A DNA stretch of 33,823 nt from Syntrophaceae bacterium (GTDB lineage Bacteria; Desulfobacterota; Syntrophia; Syntrophales; Smithellaceae): contig JAFGKC010000058.1 of NCBI GenBank assembly GCA_016928765.1, positions 1-33,823 of the forward strand, given 5' to 3'. The position numbers were made by a program, and so were the translations under genes. Within the stretch, counting starts at the first letter, position 1. Each line of letters opens with the position of its first letter. Positions 17,933 through 27,694 of the stretch are shown in pieces. The notes beneath the pieces were generated by a model. That model had not been told where the DNA came from, searched no databases, and was given only the letters and a program-made list of their open reading frames with translations.

Positions 17933-18550
17933 ATGCGGGCGGAAAGAAAAGAGCGCGAATTTAATTTCAGGCGGGCGGCTATTTTAGAGCAGGCGGAAAA
18001 GATATTCTCCGCCAAAGGATATTATAACGTGACCATGGCGGAGATTGCCGAAGCCTCCGGTTTTGCCATTGGTTCTCTATATCAGTTCTTTGAAAGCAAA
18101 GAGGATCTTTACTCCAGTATGATATTGGAAAAATTCGATCTGATGAGTGCCGCGATCCGCCAGGAAGTGAATACCGCGAAAGATGTTACCGGGAAAATCG
18201 AAGCTTTAATTGCCGCGCAGCTGCAGTTTGTCGAAAAAAACGCGGACTTCTGCCGGATATTTTTGCGTGGGCAAAGCGACGCTTTATCGGAAACAATGAC
18301 CGCGCTAAACCAAAAGATAATCGATGGTTATTTTGATAACGTAATATTTATTGAAAATATTTTAAAAGCGGGAATAAAGAGCGGAGTTTTGCGGAAAGTG
18401 CCGACGCGTGACGCGGCATCGGCATTATTTCACTTAACCAGGTCGGTTACCATCGAGTGGTTATTGAAACCCACAAAAGAGTCAATTGTATCCAAGAAAG
18501 ATTTTATTTTAGATATATTTTTTAACGGGGTGAAAAATTATGATCAATAA
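17933..18550 (+). CDS. TetR/AcrR family transcriptional regulator
   Basis: A 205-residue protein. The N-terminal helix-turn-helix is canonical: ILEQAEKIFSAKGYYNVTMA, EIAEASGFAIGSLYQFFESK, EDLY (residues 17-60). The C-terminal ligand and dimer domain is all-helical and not assignable to a known effector. It overlaps the TolC gene by 11 bp, so regulator and pump are translated from one message, and it probably represses that message by binding the palindromes at 17872-17904. The ribosome-binding site is weak (AAAGG at about 17919-17923, 9 bases before the ATG), which would keep repressor levels low. The inducer is unknown, presumably a pump substrate. Confidence 0.93.
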   Translation: MRAERKEREFNFRRAAILEQAEKIFSAKGYYNVTMAEIAEASGFAIGSLYQFFESKEDLYSSMILEKFDLMSAAIRQEVNTAKDVTGKIEALIAAQLQFVEKNADFCRIFLRGQSDALSETMTALNQKIIDGYFDNVIFIENILKAGIKSGVLRKVPTRDAASALFHLTRSVTIEWLLKPTKESIVSKKDFILDIFFNGVKNYDQ

Positions 18551-19859
18551 AAAATATTTGGTTGCTTTTTTTACGCTGATATTTTTCATCGTTTCGTCTA
18601 GTGTCGCTATCGCTCAGACTCCTCTCACTTTGGAAGAAAGCGTCGACATCGCTCTTAAAAACAGTTTTGTGCTCAATATAGCCAAAGAAGGAACAAAAAG
18701 CGCGACGGCGCAGAAAAGAGAAGCGCTGACCGGTTTTCTCCCCAAGCTTAGCACTTCCTATAGCTATAGGCGGTTAAACGAAGAACCCTATGTTCAGCTT
18801 CCGTTTCCACCCGGTGAGATGACCACGGGAACGAGAAATAATTATAACTGGAATATAGAAGCAAGGCAGCCAATTTTTGCCGGCGGCGGAATTATTGCTA
18901 ACTATATGGCAAATAAAATCGGCGAAGATGTCGCGTCAATAGAAGAGAAAGCCCGTTATCAGGATGTGGTGCAGGAAGTGAAAATCGCTTACTTTGACGT
19001 GCTGCGGGCGCAAAGGGTTCTTGAAGCGGCGGATCAGTCCGTTAAAATGCTGGAGGCGCATCGCAATGTCGCTGATAACTATTTTCAAGTCGGCTTTATC
19101 GCTAAAAATGATTTATTGCATGCCGAAGTAGAACTGGCCAACGGCAGGCAAACTTTAATCAGAGCGCAAAACGCTGTGGATATGGCAAAATCCAAGTTTA
19201 ATACATTGTTGAAGCGCAGAATATTTGAACCCGTAGAAATTGTTGATATATTGAATTACCAGCCGCTGGAACAATCCCTGGAAGAATGTTTGGCAATTGC
19301 CAAGGAGAATAGACCGGAGCTGAAAGTAGCCGCTCTAAAAGCGGAACAGGCCTCAAAAGCGGTATGGATGGCCAGAAGCGAATTATTTCCGTCTTTGAGC
19401 CTGGTCGGCAATTACGCGCGATTTGGTGATGAGGCTTCTGTTTCCGGCAGCCGTTATCAGGACGCGGAAAGCTGGTACGTAATGGCGGTAGCCAGCTGGA
19501 ATTTCTGGGAATGGGGCAGAACAAAATTCCGTGTCGATGCCAGCAAAGCAAGAGAAAATCAGGCCATTGAATCCTCAAAAGAGATTAATGACCAAATTAC
19601 ACTGGAAATAAAAAACGCCTATCTGCTTTTGCGCGAAGCTGAAAACCAGATTGTGGTTTCCGAAAAAGTTATCGAACAGGCCGAGGAAAATTTTCGTATT
19701 TCCGAAGAAAGATACAAGGAAAGAGTATCCACCTCAACAGAAGTTCTTGACGCTCAGACACTTTTGACCAGAGCGAAATCGCAGTATGCCAACGCGCTTG
19801 GTGACTACAACATCAATTACGCCAAACTGCAAAGAGCGATGGGGATTATCGCGCCTTGA
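18540..19859 (+). CDS. TolC-family outer-membrane channel
   Basis: A 439-residue protein with a Sec signal (cleavage after SVAIA at 25) and no lipobox. The mature protein opens with LTLEESVDIALKNSFVLNIA, the usual TolC helix, and shows the internal duplication: the second repeat begins LEQSLEECLAIAKENRPELK. YQVGFIAKNDLL-like text (YFQVGFIAKNDLLHAEVELA) and RISEERYKERVSTSTEVLDA are the conserved coiled helix segments. It forms a trimeric beta-barrel plus periplasmic tunnel that docks to an RND adaptor. GGGGTGA serves as the ribosome-binding site inside the end of tetR. A 99-bp gap separates it from the adaptor gene. Confidence 0.92.
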   Translation: MINKKYLVAFFTLIFFIVSSSVAIAQTPLTLEESVDIALKNSFVLNIAKEGTKSATAQKREALTGFLPKLSTSYSYRRLNEEPYVQLPFPPGEMTTGTRNNYNWNIEARQPIFAGGGIIANYMANKIGEDVASIEEKARYQDVVQEVKIAYFDVLRAQRVLEAADQSVKMLEAHRNVADNYFQVGFIAKNDLLHAEVELANGRQTLIRAQNAVDMAKSKFNTLLKRRIFEPVEIVDILNYQPLEQSLEECLAIAKENRPELKVAALKAEQASKAVWMARSELFPSLSLVGNYARFGDEASVSGSRYQDAESWYVMAVASWNFWEWGRTKFRVDASKARENQAIESSKEINDQITLEIKNAYLLLREAENQIVVSEKVIEQAEENFRISEERYKERVSTSTEVLDAQTLLTRAKSQYANALGDYNINYAKLQRAMGIIAP

Positions 19860-19958: not shown

Positions 19959-21110
19959 ATGGGTAAAAAAAATAGAGACATATTGATGATTGCAACATCC
20001 GTTTTTATTGCGGGTCTAATATTTTATGGTTGTTCGGATAAAAAAGCCGGACCGGGTATGCTTCCCGAAGTTGCTGTCTTAACGGTGCAACCGAAACAAG
20101 TAGAAATGACCACGGAATTGCCTGGTCGAACATCCGCTTATCTTATTGCCGAGGTAAGGCCGCAGGTCGGAGGCATTATTCAAAAACGCATGTTCAGGGA
20201 AGGGTCCAACGTCCGAGCCGGTCAGGCCCTGTTCCAGATAGATCCCGCTCTTTATCAGGCAACACTGGCCAGAGCGGATGCTAATCTTACGTCTCTTCAG
20301 CTAAGGGCGGAACGTTTAAAAGAACTGGTCGCGGAAAAGGCGGTTAGTCAGCAGGAATACGATGACGCGACAGCGGCATTTAAGCAGATTCAGGCGGAGG
20401 TACAGACAGCGCAAATCAATTTAAGATATACGACAATTAGCGCGCCTATTTCAGGACGCATTGGGAAATCCAGCGTTACCGTGGGAGCCCTGGTAACGGC
20501 TCATCAGCCCACCGCTTTGGCTACTATTCAGCAGATGGACCCAATGTATGTTGATGTTACCCAGTCTACTTCCGATATTGCGCGTTTAAGGCGTCAATTT
20601 AAAGAAGGTCAGCTACAACAAAAAAACAAGAAACAACAAAAGGCTAGTCTTATTTTGGATGACGGCACCGAATATCCTCAGAAAGGTATTCTTCAATTTC
20701 GTGATATAACCGTTGACCCAACAACAGGTTCGGTTATTTTACGCATTGTTTTCCCAAATCCCAACGGAGTTTTGCTGCCAGGTATGTTTGTTCGTGCCGT
20801 TTTGCAGGAAGGCATTAACGATAAAGCGATTTTGGTTCCCCAGCAGGCGGTATCGCGTGACCCTAAAGGTAATCCTTATGCATTAATTGTGGACAAAGAA
20901 AACAAAGTTCAGCAACGCCCTCTTATACTTGATCGCGCTCTTGGGGATGCCTGGTTGGTGACAGCGGGTCTTGTGCCCGGCGATAGGGTAATTGTGGAGG
21001 GGATGTTAAGGGTAAGACCAGGTATTCCTGTGAACGTCGTTCCCTTTGAGAAAACCAAACAAAAAGATGAGAAAGCGAATGACCCAAAACCGCCTGTAAA
21101 AACCAAATAA
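19959..21110 (+). CDS. RND efflux periplasmic adaptor (AcrA/MexA type)
   Basis: A 383-residue lipoprotein: lipobox IFYGC with C25, then the HlyD/AcrA layout. VRPQVGGIIQKRMFREGSNV and AGQALFQIDPALYQATL form the first lipoyl half, the helical hairpin runs over about 105-150 (EYDDATAAFKQIQAEVQTAQ), followed by TTISAPISGRIGKSSVTVGA (second lipoyl half), a beta-barrel domain and the membrane-proximal domain with VVPF at the end. The C-terminal tail is Lys/Pro-rich. It bridges the inner-membrane pump to the outer-membrane channel. The pump gene starts 12 bp downstream. Confidence 0.95.
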   Translation: MGKKNRDILMIATSVFIAGLIFYGCSDKKAGPGMLPEVAVLTVQPKQVEMTTELPGRTSAYLIAEVRPQVGGIIQKRMFREGSNVRAGQALFQIDPALYQATLARADANLTSLQLRAERLKELVAEKAVSQQEYDDATAAFKQIQAEVQTAQINLRYTTISAPISGRIGKSSVTVGALVTAHQPTALATIQQMDPMYVDVTQSTSDIARLRRQFKEGQLQQKNKKQQKASLILDDGTEYPQKGILQFRDITVDPTTGSVILRIVFPNPNGVLLPGMFVRAVLQEGINDKAILVPQQAVSRDPKGNPYALIVDKENKVQQRPLILDRALGDAWLVTAGLVPGDRVIVEGMLRVRPGIPVNVVPFEKTKQKDEKANDPKPPVKTK

Positions 21111-21122
21111 CGGGAGACTGTA

Positions 21123-24100
21123 ATGTTATCTAAATTTTTTCTTAATCGTCCGGTGTTTGCTTGGGTCATCGCCATTATCATCATGTCGGTTGGTATGCTG
21201 GCTATTTATAATCTTCCTATTTCTCAATATCCTCAAATGGCTCCGCCTACTATTGCTATTTCTGCATCCTACCCGGGAGCTTCGTCCGATACCGTGGAAA
21301 ACAGCGTTACTCAGGTAATCGAGCAGAATATGACCGGCTTGGATAATCTGCTGTATATGTCTGCTTCCAGCGATTCGGCGGGTTATTCACGCCTTGAATT
21401 AACTTTCGCTCCGGGGACGGACCCAGACATTGCCTGGTCCAAAGTACAAAACAAGGTTCAGGCCGCGATGCCGGCCCTGCCCGATGTTGTGCAGGATCAA
21501 GGAGTTGATGTCCGCAAATCCACGCGTAATTATCTGATGATTGTCGGCCTGATTTCACAAGACGGCAGTATGGACGGCACTGATTTAAGAGATTACGCCA
21601 AATCTAATCTGGAAAAAATTCTGGCGCGAGTTCCTGGAGTAGGTGAGGTGCAATCGTTTGGTGGCGGATATGCCATGCGCGTTTGGCTCAATCCCGAAAA
21701 ATTAATAAATTATAACCTTACTGTTGAAGATGTATTGGCGTCGCTCAGAGCGTATAACGTCGAGGTTTCTGCGGGACAATTCGGCGGCGCGCCTGCCGTC
21801 GTAGGCCAGCGTTTAAACGCGCCAATTGTTGTTCAAAACATGCTTTCGACTCCCGAACAATTTGCGGCCATTCCCTTACGCACAAGGATAGATGGTTCCA
21901 TCGTGCGTGTTGGTGATGTAAGCCGCATTGAATTGGGTACTGAAGTTTATGATATTTTGGTAGCCGCTAACGGTAAGGCTTCGGCAGGTATCGCTATTCG
22001 TCAGGCCCCCGGCGCTAACGCTTTGGATACGGCTGACGCGGTGAAAAATAAAATGGAAGAGATGAGCCGGTTTTTCCCCGCGGGAATAAAAGTTATTTAT
22101 CCTAATGATTCCACGGTATTTATTAAAGTGGCTATTGCTGAAGTTGTTAAAACCCTGGTCATAGCGATTTTTCTGGTTTTCATGGTTATGTGGCTTTTTC
22201 TTGGCAGTTTACGAGCTACTTTAATACCAACTATCGCGGTGCCAGTAGTTATCCTTGGTACCTTCGCTGCTTTATGGCTTTTTGGATTTAGCATTAATAT
22301 GCTGACCATGTTCGCGATGGTTTTGGCTATTGGTCTTTTAGTTGATGACGCGATAGTAGTAGTCGAAAATGTGGAGAGAATAATGCGGGACGAGGGTCTT
22401 TCTCCAAAAGAAGCCACGGCTAAATCTATGGAACAAATTACCAGCGCGCTTATCGGCATCGGCCTGGTTCTTTCCGCTGTTTTTGGACCGATGGCTTTTT
22501 TCCCCGGTTCCACGGGAGTTATCTATCGCCAGTTTTCTATTACTGTTATTTCGGCGATGCTTCTTTCAGTGGTTGTAGCGCTGATTCTGACGCCAGTACT
22601 TTGCGCCGCTTTGCTAAAACCGATTAAACCGGGGCATGATCCTTCGGAAAACACAGTTTCTTTTCTGCGTCCCTTTTTTATCTGGTTTAATAACACGTTT
22701 TTTAAATTTCGTGAGTGGTACGTGGGATTAGTTAAAAACTCTTTTTCCTATAAGACGCTCTATTTGCTTGTTTTTTTGGTTGTTATTGGATTCATGGGTT
22801 ATTTGTTTATGCGTATGCCCACGGCATATCTGCCTGATGAAGATCAGGGTATATTATTTGCTCAGGTGATGATGCCGACTGGTTCTACGTTGGAACAAAC
22901 CGGGGAAGTCGTCAGGCAAATAGAAACATATTTTAATGAAAGAGAAAAGGAAGCGGTTGAAACAGTGATGGCAATTCAAGGCATGGGCTTTTCCGGCCGG
23001 TCACAAAATAACGGTATGTTATTTATCAGGCTGAAAGATTGGCATTTGCGTGACCGGGCTGATCTAAAAGCGAAAGCTATAGCGCAAAGAGCTATGGGCG
23101 CTTTTTCCGGTATCCGCAACGCCATGGTGTTTGTCTTTCAGCCTCCCCCAGTTGTTGAATTAGGTATGTCCATTGGTTTTGATTTTCAGCTTCTGGATAG
23201 AGGAAATCTTGGCCAGCGAGCGTTGATGGCCGGGCAGTACCAGTTACTGGGTATTGTGGCCCAGGACCCACTTGTAACCAAAGTTCGCCCCAACAGTCTT
23301 CCCGATGTGGCCGAATACCGTATTGATGTGGATTGGGAAAAAGCAGGGGCTTTAGGCGTTCCGATCACTTCGATTCACAGGACCATATCGACATCATTTG
23401 GCAGTTCTTATGTTAATGATTTCACGCATGGCGGACGTGTTAAAAAAGTTTTTCTTCAGGCGGACGCTCCTTTCCGTATGTTGCCCAAAGATCTGGAAAA
23501 AATTTATGTTCGCAACACTCAGGGGAAAATGGTGCCTTTTTCTTCATTTGCCACTGGCCGGTGGGTATCAGGACCTCAGAAAAGAGATCGTTTTAACGGA
23601 TTTCCATCTATTAATATCTGGGGTGAACCAGCGCCGGGTAAAAGCTCAGGTGAAGCTATGAAAGCTATGGAAGAAGCGTTGAAAAAACTTCCCAGCGGCT
23701 TTGGTTTTGACTGGAGCGGGCTTTCATATCAGGAACGTATGGCCAGTACTCAGGCGCCTCTGCTTTACGCGTTCTCCATTTTTGTTATCTTTCTGTGTCT
23801 GGCCGCTCTCTATGAAAGTTGGACTGTTCCTATTTCAATTTTGATTGTTATTCCTTTAGGAGTTTTAGGGGGAATTATCGCGTCCAGCGCGAGGGGATTA
23901 AATAATGATGTTTATTTTCAGATAGGCCTTCTCACCACTCTAGGCCTCGGTACCAAAAACGCGATTCTGATCATCCAGTTCGCCAAAAGCGGACTGGAAA
24001 AAGGAATGGGAATCATCGAAGCGACGATTGAAGGAGCCAGGTTAAGATTTCGGCCGATTATCATGACATCGCTCGCATTTGGTTTTGGTGTTCTGCCGCT

Positions 24101-24365
24101 GGCGCTTTCGACAGGCGCGAGTGCTGGAGCCCAAAACGCTATCGGAACAAGCGTGCTGGGAGGAATGATTACCGCCACTATCTTTATTGTTGTTTTCGCG
24201 CCCCTGTTTTATGTTTTGATTGAAAAACTTTTTGGCAGACAGCAAAAGCAAGAAAAACCCAAAACAAAAAACGCGAAACCTTTCTTTTCGACGTTAAGCG
24301 AAAGCCTCGCGCGTAAGTTGGAACAATGGAGATTGGACAGAAAGAAAAAAGTTTCTCAAAGGTAA
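21123..24365 (+). CDS. RND multidrug efflux pump (AcrB/MexB, HAE1 family)
   Basis: A 1080-residue pump starting FFLNRPVFAWVIAIIIMSVG, standard for the HAE1 family. Twelve membrane helices surround two periplasmic porter loops. The proton-relay residues are intact: Asp408 and Asp409 in AIGLLVDDAIVVVENVERI and Lys945 in LGLGTKNAILIIQFAK. The text GASSDTVENSVTQVIEQNM and the sequence FSGRSQNNGMLFIRL are typical of hydrophobic-drug rather than metal exporters. The C-terminus extends about 40 charged residues beyond the last helix. It expels amphiphilic compounds using the proton gradient. Stop is 6 bp from the second outer-membrane factor gene. Confidence 0.96.
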   Translation: MLSKFFLNRPVFAWVIAIIIMSVGMLAIYNLPISQYPQMAPPTIAISASYPGASSDTVENSVTQVIEQNMTGLDNLLYMSASSDSAGYSRLELTFAPGTDPDIAWSKVQNKVQAAMPALPDVVQDQGVDVRKSTRNYLMIVGLISQDGSMDGTDLRDYAKSNLEKILARVPGVGEVQSFGGGYAMRVWLNPEKLINYNLTVEDVLASLRAYNVEVSAGQFGGAPAVVGQRLNAPIVVQNMLSTPEQFAAIPLRTRIDGSIVRVGDVSRIELGTEVYDILVAANGKASAGIAIRQAPGANALDTADAVKNKMEEMSRFFPAGIKVIYPNDSTVFIKVAIAEVVKTLVIAIFLVFMVMWLFLGSLRATLIPTIAVPVVILGTFAALWLFGFSINMLTMFAMVLAIGLLVDDAIVVVENVERIMRDEGLSPKEATAKSMEQITSALIGIGLVLSAVFGPMAFFPGSTGVIYRQFSITVISAMLLSVVVALILTPVLCAALLKPIKPGHDPSENTVSFLRPFFIWFNNTFFKFREWYVGLVKNSFSYKTLYLLVFLVVIGFMGYLFMRMPTAYLPDEDQGILFAQVMMPTGSTLEQTGEVVRQIETYFNEREKEAVETVMAIQGMGFSGRSQNNGMLFIRLKDWHLRDRADLKAKAIAQRAMGAFSGIRNAMVFVFQPPPVVELGMSIGFDFQLLDRGNLGQRALMAGQYQLLGIVAQDPLVTKVRPNSLPDVAEYRIDVDWEKAGALGVPITSIHRTISTSFGSSYVNDFTHGGRVKKVFLQADAPFRMLPKDLEKIYVRNTQGKMVPFSSFATGRWVSGPQKRDRFNGFPSINIWGEPAPGKSSGEAMKAMEEALKKLPSGFGFDWSGLSYQERMASTQAPLLYAFSIFVIFLCLAALYESWTVPISILIVIPLGVLGGIIASSARGLNNDVYFQIGLLTTLGLGTKNAILIIQFAKSGLEKGMGIIEATIEGARLRFRPIIMTSLAFGFGVLPLALSTGASAGAQNAIGTSVLGGMITATIFIVVFAPLFYVLIEKLFGRQQKQEKPKTKNAKPFFSTLSESLARKLEQWRLDRKKKVSQR

Positions 24366-24371
24366 AATGAT

Positions 24372-25784
24372 ATGAACAGAAAAATAAATCTTTTATTGAT
24401 TGTTTTTACGCTTTTTCTTGGTGGATGCACGCTCGCGCCCAAATACACACGTCCGGAAGCGCCAGTTCCTGCTGAATGGCCTGCCGGCAAAGCCTACAAG
24501 GAAAAAACAGCTGACGCGTCAGCGCCGGCAGCCGCAGAGCTGCCGTGGCGGGATTTTATAACGGATAAAAAGTTGCAGGAGGTCATTGAGATCGCGCTGA
24601 AAAACAACCGTGATTTGCGTGTGGCCGCCCTGAACGTGGAACAGGCGAGGGCGCTTTACGGTATTGGAGAAGTTTCGATTTTACCTTCGGTCAACGCGAT
24701 CGGCAATTGGTATAAAGAACGAGTTCCGGCGGATCTTTCTGCTACGGGAAGCAGGCATACAACTGAAAAGTATAGTGTTAATCTTGGTATTACTTCCTGG
24801 GAAATAGATTTTTTCGGCCGTATCCGCAGCCTGAAAGACAAAGCACTGGAAGAATATCTGGCCTCGGACCAAGCCCGTCGCGGTACGCAAATTATGCTTA
24901 TATCCACTGTAGCGCAAACATATCTTACCCTGGCCGCGGACAAAGAAGCCCTTCAATTGGTTTCCTCCACTCTAGATGCACAGGATGCCGCGTATAATCT
25001 GATTCGGAAACGTTACAATGTCGGCATGGCATCAGAGTTGGATCTTCGCCGGGCGCAAAGCCAGGTGGACATAGCCAGAGGCGATGTTGCCCGTTACACG
25101 CAATTGGTCGCGCAGGATGAAAACGCTTTAAATCTGCTGGTCGGTTCTCCCATTCAGGAGGAATTGTTACCTGAACATTTGGCAGATATTAGCGCTCTCA
25201 AAGATATTTCGCCCGGCCTAACCTCGGACCCGTTATTATTGCGTCCAGATGTATTGGCGGCGGAACACAGGCTCAAAGCGGCTAATGCTAATATAGGCGC
25301 CGCCCGCGCGGCTTTTTTCCCCCGAATCTCTTTGACCACTACAATTGGAACCGCAAGCGCTGATCTTTCCGGTCTTTTTAAATCCGGATCAGGTGTATGG
25401 AGTTTCGCGCCGCAGATTGTGATGCCGATTTTTGACGCCCGTACCTGGTTTGCCTATGATGTCTCCAAAATCGACAAAGAAATATCCATTGCCCAGTATG
25501 AAAAATCAATTCAGGCAGCTTTTCGTGAGGTAGCGGACGCGCTGGCTGCAAAGGGAACAATTGGCGAGAGAGTCGCGGCGCAGCAATCATTAGTTGATGC
25601 CTTTACGGAAACATATCGTCTTTCACAATTGCGTTATAATCAAGGTATCGACAGTTATCTTTCAGTTCTGGACGCGCAGCGGTCTTTATATGGCGCTCAG
25701 CAGGGTTTGATTATGCTGCGCTTGGCTGAGATTAACAACATTGTCACGCTTTACAAAACGCTAGGCGGCGGCAAAGAAAATTAA
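24372..25784 (+). CDS. OprM/NodT-type outer-membrane efflux lipoprotein
   Basis: A 470-residue lipoprotein with lipobox FLGGC (C19) followed by LAPKYTRPEAPVPAEWP, the characteristic start of the OprM/CusC/NodT branch. The double-repeat structure is complete: ALKNNRDLRVAALNVEQARA, LRRAQSQVDIARGDVARYTQ, then LLRPDVLAAEHRLKAANANI and QLRYNQGIDSYLSVLDAQRS. It forms a trimeric outer-membrane tunnel. It is the second outer-membrane factor in this operon, the first being the TolC-type protein at 18540; the two are only distantly related. It is 6 bp from the pump gene, so it is surely in the same message, and is probably the preferred partner of the pump. Confidence 0.94.
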   Translation: MNRKINLLLIVFTLFLGGCTLAPKYTRPEAPVPAEWPAGKAYKEKTADASAPAAAELPWRDFITDKKLQEVIEIALKNNRDLRVAALNVEQARALYGIGEVSILPSVNAIGNWYKERVPADLSATGSRHTTEKYSVNLGITSWEIDFFGRIRSLKDKALEEYLASDQARRGTQIMLISTVAQTYLTLAADKEALQLVSSTLDAQDAAYNLIRKRYNVGMASELDLRRAQSQVDIARGDVARYTQLVAQDENALNLLVGSPIQEELLPEHLADISALKDISPGLTSDPLLLRPDVLAAEHRLKAANANIGAARAAFFPRISLTTTIGTASADLSGLFKSGSGVWSFAPQIVMPIFDARTWFAYDVSKIDKEISIAQYEKSIQAAFREVADALAAKGTIGERVAAQQSLVDAFTETYRLSQLRYNQGIDSYLSVLDAQRSLYGAQQGLIMLRLAEINNIVTLYKTLGGGKEN

Positions 25785-25807: not shown

Positions 25808-26866
25808 TTGATAAAGATGAGATACTTTCTATTGTTCATGTTCATTTTTTTAAATTTTTTTTCCCTTCAGCCAGTTTTTGCCGCTGATGAAAAAGCAAGA
25901 AACGCGGATACCTTAACTGTTTATTTAGAAAACGATCTTTTTGGCTTTAAAAATAAAGATCGTTACTATACTCACGGAACAAAAATATCATGGGTTTCCC
26001 GCGACCTGACAAATTATCGCGATGCTTTACCCGCGCCACGATGGATCCACAGGATGATTGAACGATTGCCTTATCTTAACGATCCCGAAAACCTGCGCAC
26101 GGTTTCTATATCGCTTGGCCAGAATATTTATACCCCTCAAGATAAAGAACGGGAAGATTTAATCAGGGATGATCGTCCCTATGCCGGATTTACTTACCTG
26201 GGACTCGGCCTTCACAGTCGAAACAAGCGGTATATGGATACCTTTGAATTAAATTTGGGAATTGTCGGACGCCATTCGTATGCGGAAGATTGTCAAAAAG
26301 TGATTCATGAATGGATTGGTTCGGTAGATCCTAACGGCTGGAAAAACCAGCTTCATGACGAACCTATCCTAAATTTTTATTTAGAACGTAAATGGAAAAT
26401 ACTGCAAAATAGAAACAAAGAAGGGTTTGGGTTCGATCTCATCCCTCATATTGGCGCGGGTATCGGCAACTCTTATACGGGTGCTAACTTGGGCGGACAA
26501 TTGCGCTTTGGCTGGAATATCCCCAATGATTTCGGTACGTATCTTATCCGTCCAGGTTCCGACAGCAGTGCTCCTCTTGATGATAATGATCCACGGTTTT
26601 TTATTCCCTTTCACCGTTTTGGCATTCATTGCTTTTTGGGTGCTGATGGAAAAGCAATCGCGCGTAATATTCTTTTGGACGGAAACACGTTTCGCGATAG
26701 TCATAGCGTGGACAAAAAGCCTTTTGTTGCTGATTTTATCGGAGGGATAGGAATAATTGTTCATCAGGTAAAAATAACCTATTCTTATGTATATCGTACA
26801 AAAGAGTTCGATGAACAGAAAGAAGAACATATTTTTGGAGCTGCCTCTGTATCATTTACTTTTTGA
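25808..26866 (+). CDS. LpxR-like lipid A deacylase family (DUF2219) outer-membrane protein
   Basis: A 352-residue protein with a signal peptide (ending PVFA/A near 25) and a beta-barrel-like remainder ending in an aromatic strand (ASVSFTF). Conserved DUF2219 blocks are present: YLENDLFGFKNKDRYYTHGT (39-58; N42 and D43 match the catalytic pair of Salmonella LpxR), SLGQNIYTPQD, DDRPYAGFTYLGLG, GRHSYAEDCQKVIHEW (candidate catalytic His) and WKNQLHDEP. LpxR removes the 3'-acyloxyacyl chains from lipid A at the cell surface. Start: TTG at 25808 is 5 bases from an AAAGGA site; ATG at 25817 is also possible and would shorten the signal by three residues. It follows the second outer-membrane factor by 23 bp. 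Confidence 0.85.
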   Translation: MIKMRYFLLFMFIFLNFFSLQPVFAADEKARNADTLTVYLENDLFGFKNKDRYYTHGTKISWVSRDLTNYRDALPAPRWIHRMIERLPYLNDPENLRTVSISLGQNIYTPQDKEREDLIRDDRPYAGFTYLGLGLHSRNKRYMDTFELNLGIVGRHSYAEDCQKVIHEWIGSVDPNGWKNQLHDEPILNFYLERKWKILQNRNKEGFGFDLIPHIGAGIGNSYTGANLGGQLRFGWNIPNDFGTYLIRPGSDSSAPLDDNDPRFFIPFHRFGIHCFLGADGKAIARNILLDGNTFRDSHSVDKKPFVADFIGGIGIIVHQVKITYSYVYRTKEFDEQKEEHIFGAASVSFTF

Positions 26867-26970: not shown

Positions 26971-27264
26971 ATGAAAATGTTTTTTATCATTTACGCCGCG
27001 TATTTTGATAAGCGTATAACAGACGCGCTTAAAAAAGCTGGTTACAAAGCTTATACGAAAATGCATGATGTAACGGGTGAAGGAGAAGAAAGCGAGCCCA
27101 AGCTGGGCACATCTTACTCGCCAGGTAAGAACAAGACAATTTGGATGGCGGTGCCGGAGGAAAAGGTTAAGCATCTTATCGAGCTGGTAAGAAAAATAAA
27201 AACTGAACATCCAGGCGCCGGTTTACGCGCTTTTACTTTTCCTTTGGCGGAGGAAAAAATTTAA
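26971..27264 (+). CDS. PII-like transporter-associated protein (PG0541 type)
   Basis: A 97-residue soluble protein with ferredoxin-like PII layout: FFIIYAAYFDKRITDALKKA (strand and helix), YTKMHDVTGEGEESEPKLGT (T-loop region), IWMAVPEEKVKHLIELVRKI and a final strand AFTFPLAE. The pattern matches the small family typified by PG0541 of Porphyromonas, which from memory is found beside RND transporters; that is the context here. True GlnB signature residues (the T-loop Tyr context and C-terminal PII signature) are lacking, so it is not a nitrogen regulator. GGAGG lies 8 bases before the ATG. The 104-bp gap to lpxR leaves open whether it has its own promoter. Confidence 0.75.
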   Translation: MKMFFIIYAAYFDKRITDALKKAGYKAYTKMHDVTGEGEESEPKLGTSYSPGKNKTIWMAVPEEKVKHLIELVRKIKTEHPGAGLRAFTFPLAEEKI

Positions 27265-27310
27265 AGTGAAAATGGTTGGTCAGAAAGTAACGCGCAGACA
27301 GAAAGATATT

Positions 27311-27327
27311 TCCCGCCTCCTGCGGGA
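27311..27327. repeat. Small GC-rich hairpin between convergent genes
   Basis: TCCCGC, loop CTCCT, GCGGGA. It lies 47 bp after the PII-like gene without a T-tract; it may end that transcript with or without Rho. Confidence 0.35.
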
Positions 27328-27424
27328 GAAAAAGCACAATCCTGCCCGCCATTCTTTTAAAAGAGAGCGGTTTCCTGTAAAAAAACGGGATAATTGAAAA
27401 CAAATATTTGCTTGTTTTGATTAG

Positions 27425-27694
27425 TTATTTGCGGGATAACAATAAACCGAGAGTAATACCGATTGCCGCGCCGATAACCGCAATGGTCATCATGTTGTTG
27501 AAAGAAGATTGCGCCATCGGAACCAGCACCTGTTCCACGCCTTTAAGGTTTGCTCCTCTGGTTATTACAGTGCTAAAAGGCAATTGGCCAATGATGAGTG
27601 CCGAAGGGCGGTACAGAAAACCGATTAAACCGCCAGTGATCAAGCCGACAATGCCTAATTTTAGCGTCAACCAGCCGGAATCTTTTGAGGCCAT
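27425..27694 (-). CDS. Small two-helix membrane protein
   Basis: An 89-residue protein with two hydrophobic helices, about 10-27 (LKLGIVGLITGGLIGFLY) and 68-86 (MTIAVIGAAIGITLGLLL), both with Gly-zipper spacing. The loop between them reads ALIIGQLPFSTVITRGANLK and is likely periplasmic, with an LPF and TRG that look conserved-type, though no named family is recalled. It is the last gene of the minus-strand unit, 44 bp after rlmN. Function unknown. Confidence 0.65.
   Translation of the reverse strand: MASKDSGWLTLKLGIVGLITGGLIGFLYRPSALIIGQLPFSTVITRGANLKGVEQVLVPMAQSSFNNMMTIAVIGAAIGITLGLLLSRK

Follow-up and report, generated by a model that had tools for sequence, protein, structure and literature searches.

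Does a PII-like protein encoded downstream of a multidrug efflux pump control that pump? The question is raised by a small gene on a contig of a Syntrophaceae bacterium (JAFGKC010000058.1; the whole stretch of 33,823 nt that was analysed is here called the window). By its named relatives, the genome belongs to the Syntrophaceae/Smithellaceae of the Thermodesulfobacteriota. The initial annotation regarded the gene product as a free-standing PII-like protein of the PG0541 type, proposed that it directly controls the adjacent RND pump or adaptor, and combined it with six neighbours into a seven-gene envelope-defence cassette. To our knowledge, post-translational control of an RND efflux pump has not been demonstrated for any cytoplasmic signalling protein. 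Small proteins that bind RND pumps and modulate them include AcrZ and WatS1 (PMC10710835). A literature search (PG0541; PII-like together with RND) yielded no experimental study of PG0541-family function.

In a neighbourhood of 60 genomes the usual gene order around PII is TetR-TolC-TolC′-MFP′-RND′-PII, and RND′ denotes the permease of this order throughout. The features of the window are as follows.

17933–18550, plus strand: TetR-family regulator of the ancestral TetR-TolC...PII locus (Pfam TetR_N, 54.8 bits; synteny).
18540–19859, plus strand: TolC-family channel of the ancestral PII locus (Pfam OEP; orthologues of 65–72% identity adjoin RND′/PII in the family).
19959–21110, plus strand: MFP adaptor of the incoming AcrB-type module (TIGR01730, 265 bits; best models MexA/AcrA; orthologues in PII-free loci).
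21123–24365, plus strand: AcrB-type RND permease, incoming (TIGR00915, 1493 bits; in a clade apart from 60 of 61 PII-linked RNDs).
24372–25784, plus strand: NodT/OprM-type channel of the AcrB module (TIGR01845, 384 bits; 3′ of AcrB in PII-free loci).
25808–26866, plus strand: LpxR-like outer-membrane lipid A deacylase of the AcrB module (Pfam LpxR, 354 bits).
26971–27264, plus strand: PG0541-family PII-like protein of a derived clade lacking a tryptophan, the W-less clade (NF045581, 72 bits; Pfam P-II, 34.6 bits; PII fold; clade support 100/92).
27073–27129, plus strand: T-loop of the PII-like protein, residues 35–53 (TGEGEESEPKLGTSYSPGK; pLDDT below 50 at residues 38–51; column counts).
27272–27397, plus strand: basic microprotein reading frame of 41 aa directly 3′ of PII (tblastn hits at the locus in at least 17 relatives).

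All six neighbours named initially (TetR, TolC, MFP, RND, a NodT-type channel and LpxR) were thus recovered on the plus strand, with NodT and LpxR standing between the AcrB-type pump and PII. Since PII is co-directional with the pump genes and follows across a 104-bp gap without a terminator-like site, its co-transcription with them is likely. A palindrome 5′ of PII (AAAACAATTTATTATTGTTTT) was considered as an operator and dropped, as it is not conserved in sister species. The microprotein, which is unannotated and starts MVGQKVTRRQKDISRLLREKK, gave no significant match in Pfam and NCBIfam; it is kept at the RND′/PII locus in at least 17 relatives, among them G001 and G017, both without PII. 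Between PII and RlmN, a small membrane-like protein of 89 aa with a weak DUF4064 match is encoded on the minus strand (27425–27694); the same position is kept across the genus, and in G023 the gene is located elsewhere.

The PII reading frame extends from an ATG at 26971 to a TAA at 27264, encodes 97 aa and has a GGAGG ribosome-binding site immediately 5′ of it. It matched the NCBIfam model NF045581 ('PG0541 family transporter-associated protein') with 72 bits (cut-off 45, E 3e-20) over model positions 1–90 of 91, which places it in the PG0541 family, and Pfam P-II with 34.6 bits (cut-off 25). An AlphaFold model, computed as a single chain from 22 aligned relatives, had a mean pLDDT of 80.8 and PII topology, with the order strand-helix-strand-strand-helix-strand and a disordered loop at residues 38–51. 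Searched against the PDB with Foldseek, this model matched GlnK, GlnB/GlnZ, CPII and PstA best (probability 1.00, E from 2e-6), and a PDB sequence search gave weak matches to CPII. The ferredoxin-like topology with a T-loop, together with the Pfam match, places the protein in the PII superfamily, and the initial assignment to a free-standing PII-fold protein of PG0541 type is borne out. Canonical GlnB and GlnK proteins carry a uridylylation site, Y-[KR]-G-[AS]-[AE]-Y, and a C-terminal signature, GDGKI. Neither pattern occurred in any of 87 family sequences, and the window protein is not a canonical GlnB/GlnK. Because its orthologues in sister species are 81–90% identical and interspecies dN/dS within the genus is about 0.1 (NG86; 0.14–0.25 by YN00 where computable), the window PII is a real gene under purifying selection and still in use. 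Four species of the genus carry an intact copy, as do members of the W-less clade outside it.

For the analysis of the family across the phylum, 395 genomes were sampled, of which 62 contained a PG0541 match; 40 loci were fetched, and as one of these stops at a contig edge, 39 were evaluable. A same-strand RND gene was located upstream of PII in 37 of the 39, including two loci where an MFP-like gene intervenes and two where 0.9–1.1 kb separate the genes. Two Bacteroidales records showed the order TetR-TolC-MFP-RND-PG0541. The association proposed initially between this family and RND genes is therefore strong in a broad survey, and the absence of association that was to have refuted it did not occur. 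This link is already known from the NCBIfam name 'transporter-associated' and from the PII-NG literature; as cited in PMC7726332, a 2009 description has PII-NG proteins clustering with CzcABC. A second MFP-like gene sits between RND′ and PII at loci L143 and L145, from two genomes of a single family. Open frames of 627–1186 aa around PII in three genomes were considered as PII-RND fusions and proved to be out-of-frame translations. A C-terminal 'YDxFDDW' tail of the RND′ clade was likewise rejected as a docking site, as RND′ proteins without PII also have it and the second PII-linked RND clade lacks it.

The linked pump is not of the type seen in the window. In the RND phylogeny, 60 of 61 PII-linked permeases fell into two clades, that of RND′ and a second one, both apart from the AcrB-type permeases, which include the window's and form a separate branch with a support of 100. 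The sole exception (L174) is a long branch near, but outside, the AcrB clade. Among the loci surveyed, no AcrB-type pump adjoined a PG0541 protein in the usual operon arrangement outside the window's genus. The window PII thus departs from the usual, though not defining, context of the family, in which the gene directly follows an RND of the usual clades. RND′ is 26–29% identical to the window pump and has a different best RND model. In many relatives RlmN, isocitrate dehydrogenase and aconitase are located 3′ of PII, and the same genes follow in the window. A side observation was made at locus L032 (G029), where RND′ is in two pieces by frameshift or stop beside an intact PII.

Co-occurrence across 59 genomes separated the two pumps. 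Outside the genus, RND′ and PII occurred together in 28 genomes, PII only in 2, RND′ only in 4 (one of these, G008, cut by a contig edge) and neither in 18 (Fisher p = 3e-8); for all 59 genomes the counts were 28, 7, 4 and 20. The corresponding counts for AcrB-type pumps and PII outside the genus were 19, 11, 14 and 8 (Fisher p = 1). The contrast between the two tests carries more weight than either p-value, since shared ancestry inflates both equally. Moreover, orthologues of the window AcrB (65–88% identity) were found elsewhere, in PII-free loci. By type, the MFP, RND and NodT genes of the window correspond to those of AcrAB-OprM/MexAB-OprM type multidrug pumps, and in relatives this type of module stands alone, with PII no part of it.

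The history of the locus was followed within the genus, whose genomes are MAGs of 84–95% completeness, so that absence calls rest on MAGs together with synteny. No RND′ orthologue was found in G000 and six sister genomes (best match 28–32%). In three genomes, including that of the window, the interval from TolC to PII is taken up by the AcrB module. NodT runs into PII in G000, with LpxR, and in G003. The G004 locus is split inside NodT over two contigs, the first with TetR-TolC-MFP-AcrB-NodT, the second with NodT-LpxR-PII. In G001, NodT-AcrB-MFP are found at the same place, PII is absent and no remnant of it was recognisable; in G006, TolC and PII adjoin directly and MFP-AcrB-NodT-LpxR are on another contig. 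As G006 has PII without an adjacent AcrB and G001 has AcrB without PII, each of the two can stand at the locus without the other. The AcrB module either entered once and left again in G006 or entered after G006 had branched.

Of the 59 relatives, 16 carry LpxR, which in 10 of them was located near an AcrB-type module (by coordinates), and for this reason it is assigned to the AcrB module and not to the PII locus. Its position beside the module (window 25808–26866; L065, L072) may reflect a real link between lipid A 3′-O-deacylation and an AcrB-type pump. Further, broken LpxR copies are present in G023. The seven genes are consequently a recent composite, in which TetR-TolC...PII is fused with MFP-AcrB-NodT-LpxR. 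As a conserved envelope-defence cassette the set did not hold up: it is complete only in the window and in G004, the nearest sister species, there on two broken contigs, and other members of the genus lack LpxR, PII or an adjacent pump.

A change in the PII protein itself accompanies the loss of RND′. At residue 50 of the window PII (27118–27120), located at the T-loop end in the model, the usual WPG motif of the T-loop, which is not defining for PG0541, reads SPG. Of 78 distinct sequences outside an eight-member clade, 77 had W and one had Y in this column; inside the clade it held S (five) or A (three), giving SPG or APG, and it was the sole column of more than 90% conservation with a different commonest residue in the clade. 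The W-less clade consists of the window PII, three sister-species proteins and L063, L064, L091 and L105. It is nested within the RND′-linked PIIs (support 100/92; 95/88 without column 50), and no close RND′ was found in the genomes of its members (best 33%). In L031, PII is located away from an RND′ that lies elsewhere in the genome, and the W is kept. The T-loop is the part by which GlnK reaches its transporter (PMC10710835). A link between the loss of the tryptophan and that of the pump is suggestive, resting on one evolutionary event and thus a correlation with n = 1.

Taken together, these data favour the reading that the window PII descends from the last gene of a TetR-TolC-TolC′-MFP′-RND′-PII operon and is now decoupled, which we consider probable. 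In the ancestor, PII would have been the last gene of this operon; in the genus, RND′ would have been lost, and a previously separate MFP-AcrB-NodT(-LpxR) module, seen in three genomes, would have come to lie between TolC and PII. For the family, the fold, the linkage to RND genes and the precedents of GlnK and SbtB suggest that a homotrimeric PII may dock on trimeric RND′ from the cytoplasmic side via the WPG tip of the T-loop; by analogy with GlnK on AmtB and SbtB on SbtA, docking may be ligand-dependent and tune transport. In the window protein, the contact with RND′ may well have been lost along with the pump, and the protein would now act on another target as a stand-alone ligand-binding PII-like protein. 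The neighbouring AcrB pump would then not be controlled by it via the family mechanism. Counting against decoupling, with E below 1e-60 required, an AcrB-type permease was the sole RND recovered from G000, G004 and G006, and AcrB is therefore the candidate partner if the window PII still serves an RND.

The alternative that survives best, which we nevertheless regard as unlikely, is that the PII-like trimer was retargeted and gates the adjacent AcrB-type pump or adaptor on a nucleotide or other ligand. It would account for the adjacency of the two on a shared strand, for the 104-bp gap without a terminator-like site, for AcrB being the sole RND in those three genomes and for the purifying selection on PII. 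The derived features of the protein (a YFD motif and the loss of W50) are, however, older than the adjacency, because they are common to L063, L064, L091 and L105, which have no AcrB-type pump in an operon with PII. AcrB and PII also show no co-occurrence, and sister species have one without the other at this place (AcrB without PII in G001, PII without adjacent AcrB in G006). Control of the adjacent pump or adaptor, as proposed initially, is thus possible but unsupported: the two genes occur independently (p = 1) and part both ways. Neighbourhood alone is no proof of pump control here, as an unrelated pump now stands where the original one has disappeared.

It is quite improbable that the window PII is a relic which survives the loss of RND′ only by recency and will decay. 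A PII truncated at both ends in G033, of another genus, where the RND′ interval is deleted, would fit this reading, and the loss in G001 without a recognisable remnant would fit as well; against it, four species of the genus keep an intact PII of 81–90% identity at a dN/dS of about 0.1, and the gene is intact in clade members outside the genus. Equally improbable is a metal-sensing PII of the PII-NG or CutA-like kind reporting cytoplasmic metal to an RND exporter or regulator, as proposed for GSU2134 and CzcABC in Geobacter: PII-NG clusters with CzcABC in an operon that is cobalt-induced in Geobacter sulfurreducens (PMC7726332), and the second PII-linked RND clade is nearest a query scoring relatively high with the CusA/CzcA model, but the ancestral RND′ scored highest with the multidrug model (932 bits versus 439 bits for CusA/CzcA), a conserved Cys/His metal-ligand set was not seen in the alignment, and H48 is S in the window PII.

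The decoupled PII can be placed among known systems. The PG0541 family shares with it the full-length model match above cut-off, and the position after an RND is common to the ancestral locus and the Bacteroidales; the window differs in its AcrB-type pump, in the replacement of the T-loop Trp by Ser, and in NodT and LpxR between pump and PII. PII-NG (Sant'Anna 2009; GSU2134 with CzcABC in Geobacter sulfurreducens), as portrayed in citing work, likewise has a PII domain, is encoded together with a tripartite RND pump and is regarded as a sensor; it was compared with PG0541 by this description, and its pump is CzcABC, that of the window AcrB-type. GlnK-AmtB and SbtB-SbtA, in which a PII-fold protein is encoded beside a trimeric membrane transporter, serve as the working model for the family, in contrast to which PG0541 proteins lack the uridylylation site and the C-terminal PII signature and have an RND pump as putative partner. 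CPII of Thiomonas intermedia (PDB 5d4o) has a PII-like fold, matches the window protein weakly in sequence and strongly in fold, and binds ADP/AMP and bicarbonate according to PDB titles.

A further and tentative generalisation, possible but doubtful at present, is that PG0541 proteins plug or gate RND pumps in the manner of GlnK, with the near-invariant T-loop Trp-Pro-Gly as contact, and that the window clade has naturally lost its partner as well as the contact residue and so become free to serve a new target. PG0541 proteins are good candidates for the post-translational control of RND pumps, and the present data point to RND′, not AcrB, as the candidate pump, to Trp50 of the T-loop as the candidate residue and to the W-less clade as a natural control. 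Adjacency in one genome can mislead, as here a pump was exchanged beneath a regulator; the uncoupled clade and the near-invariant tryptophan bear directly on the mechanism of the PG0541 family.
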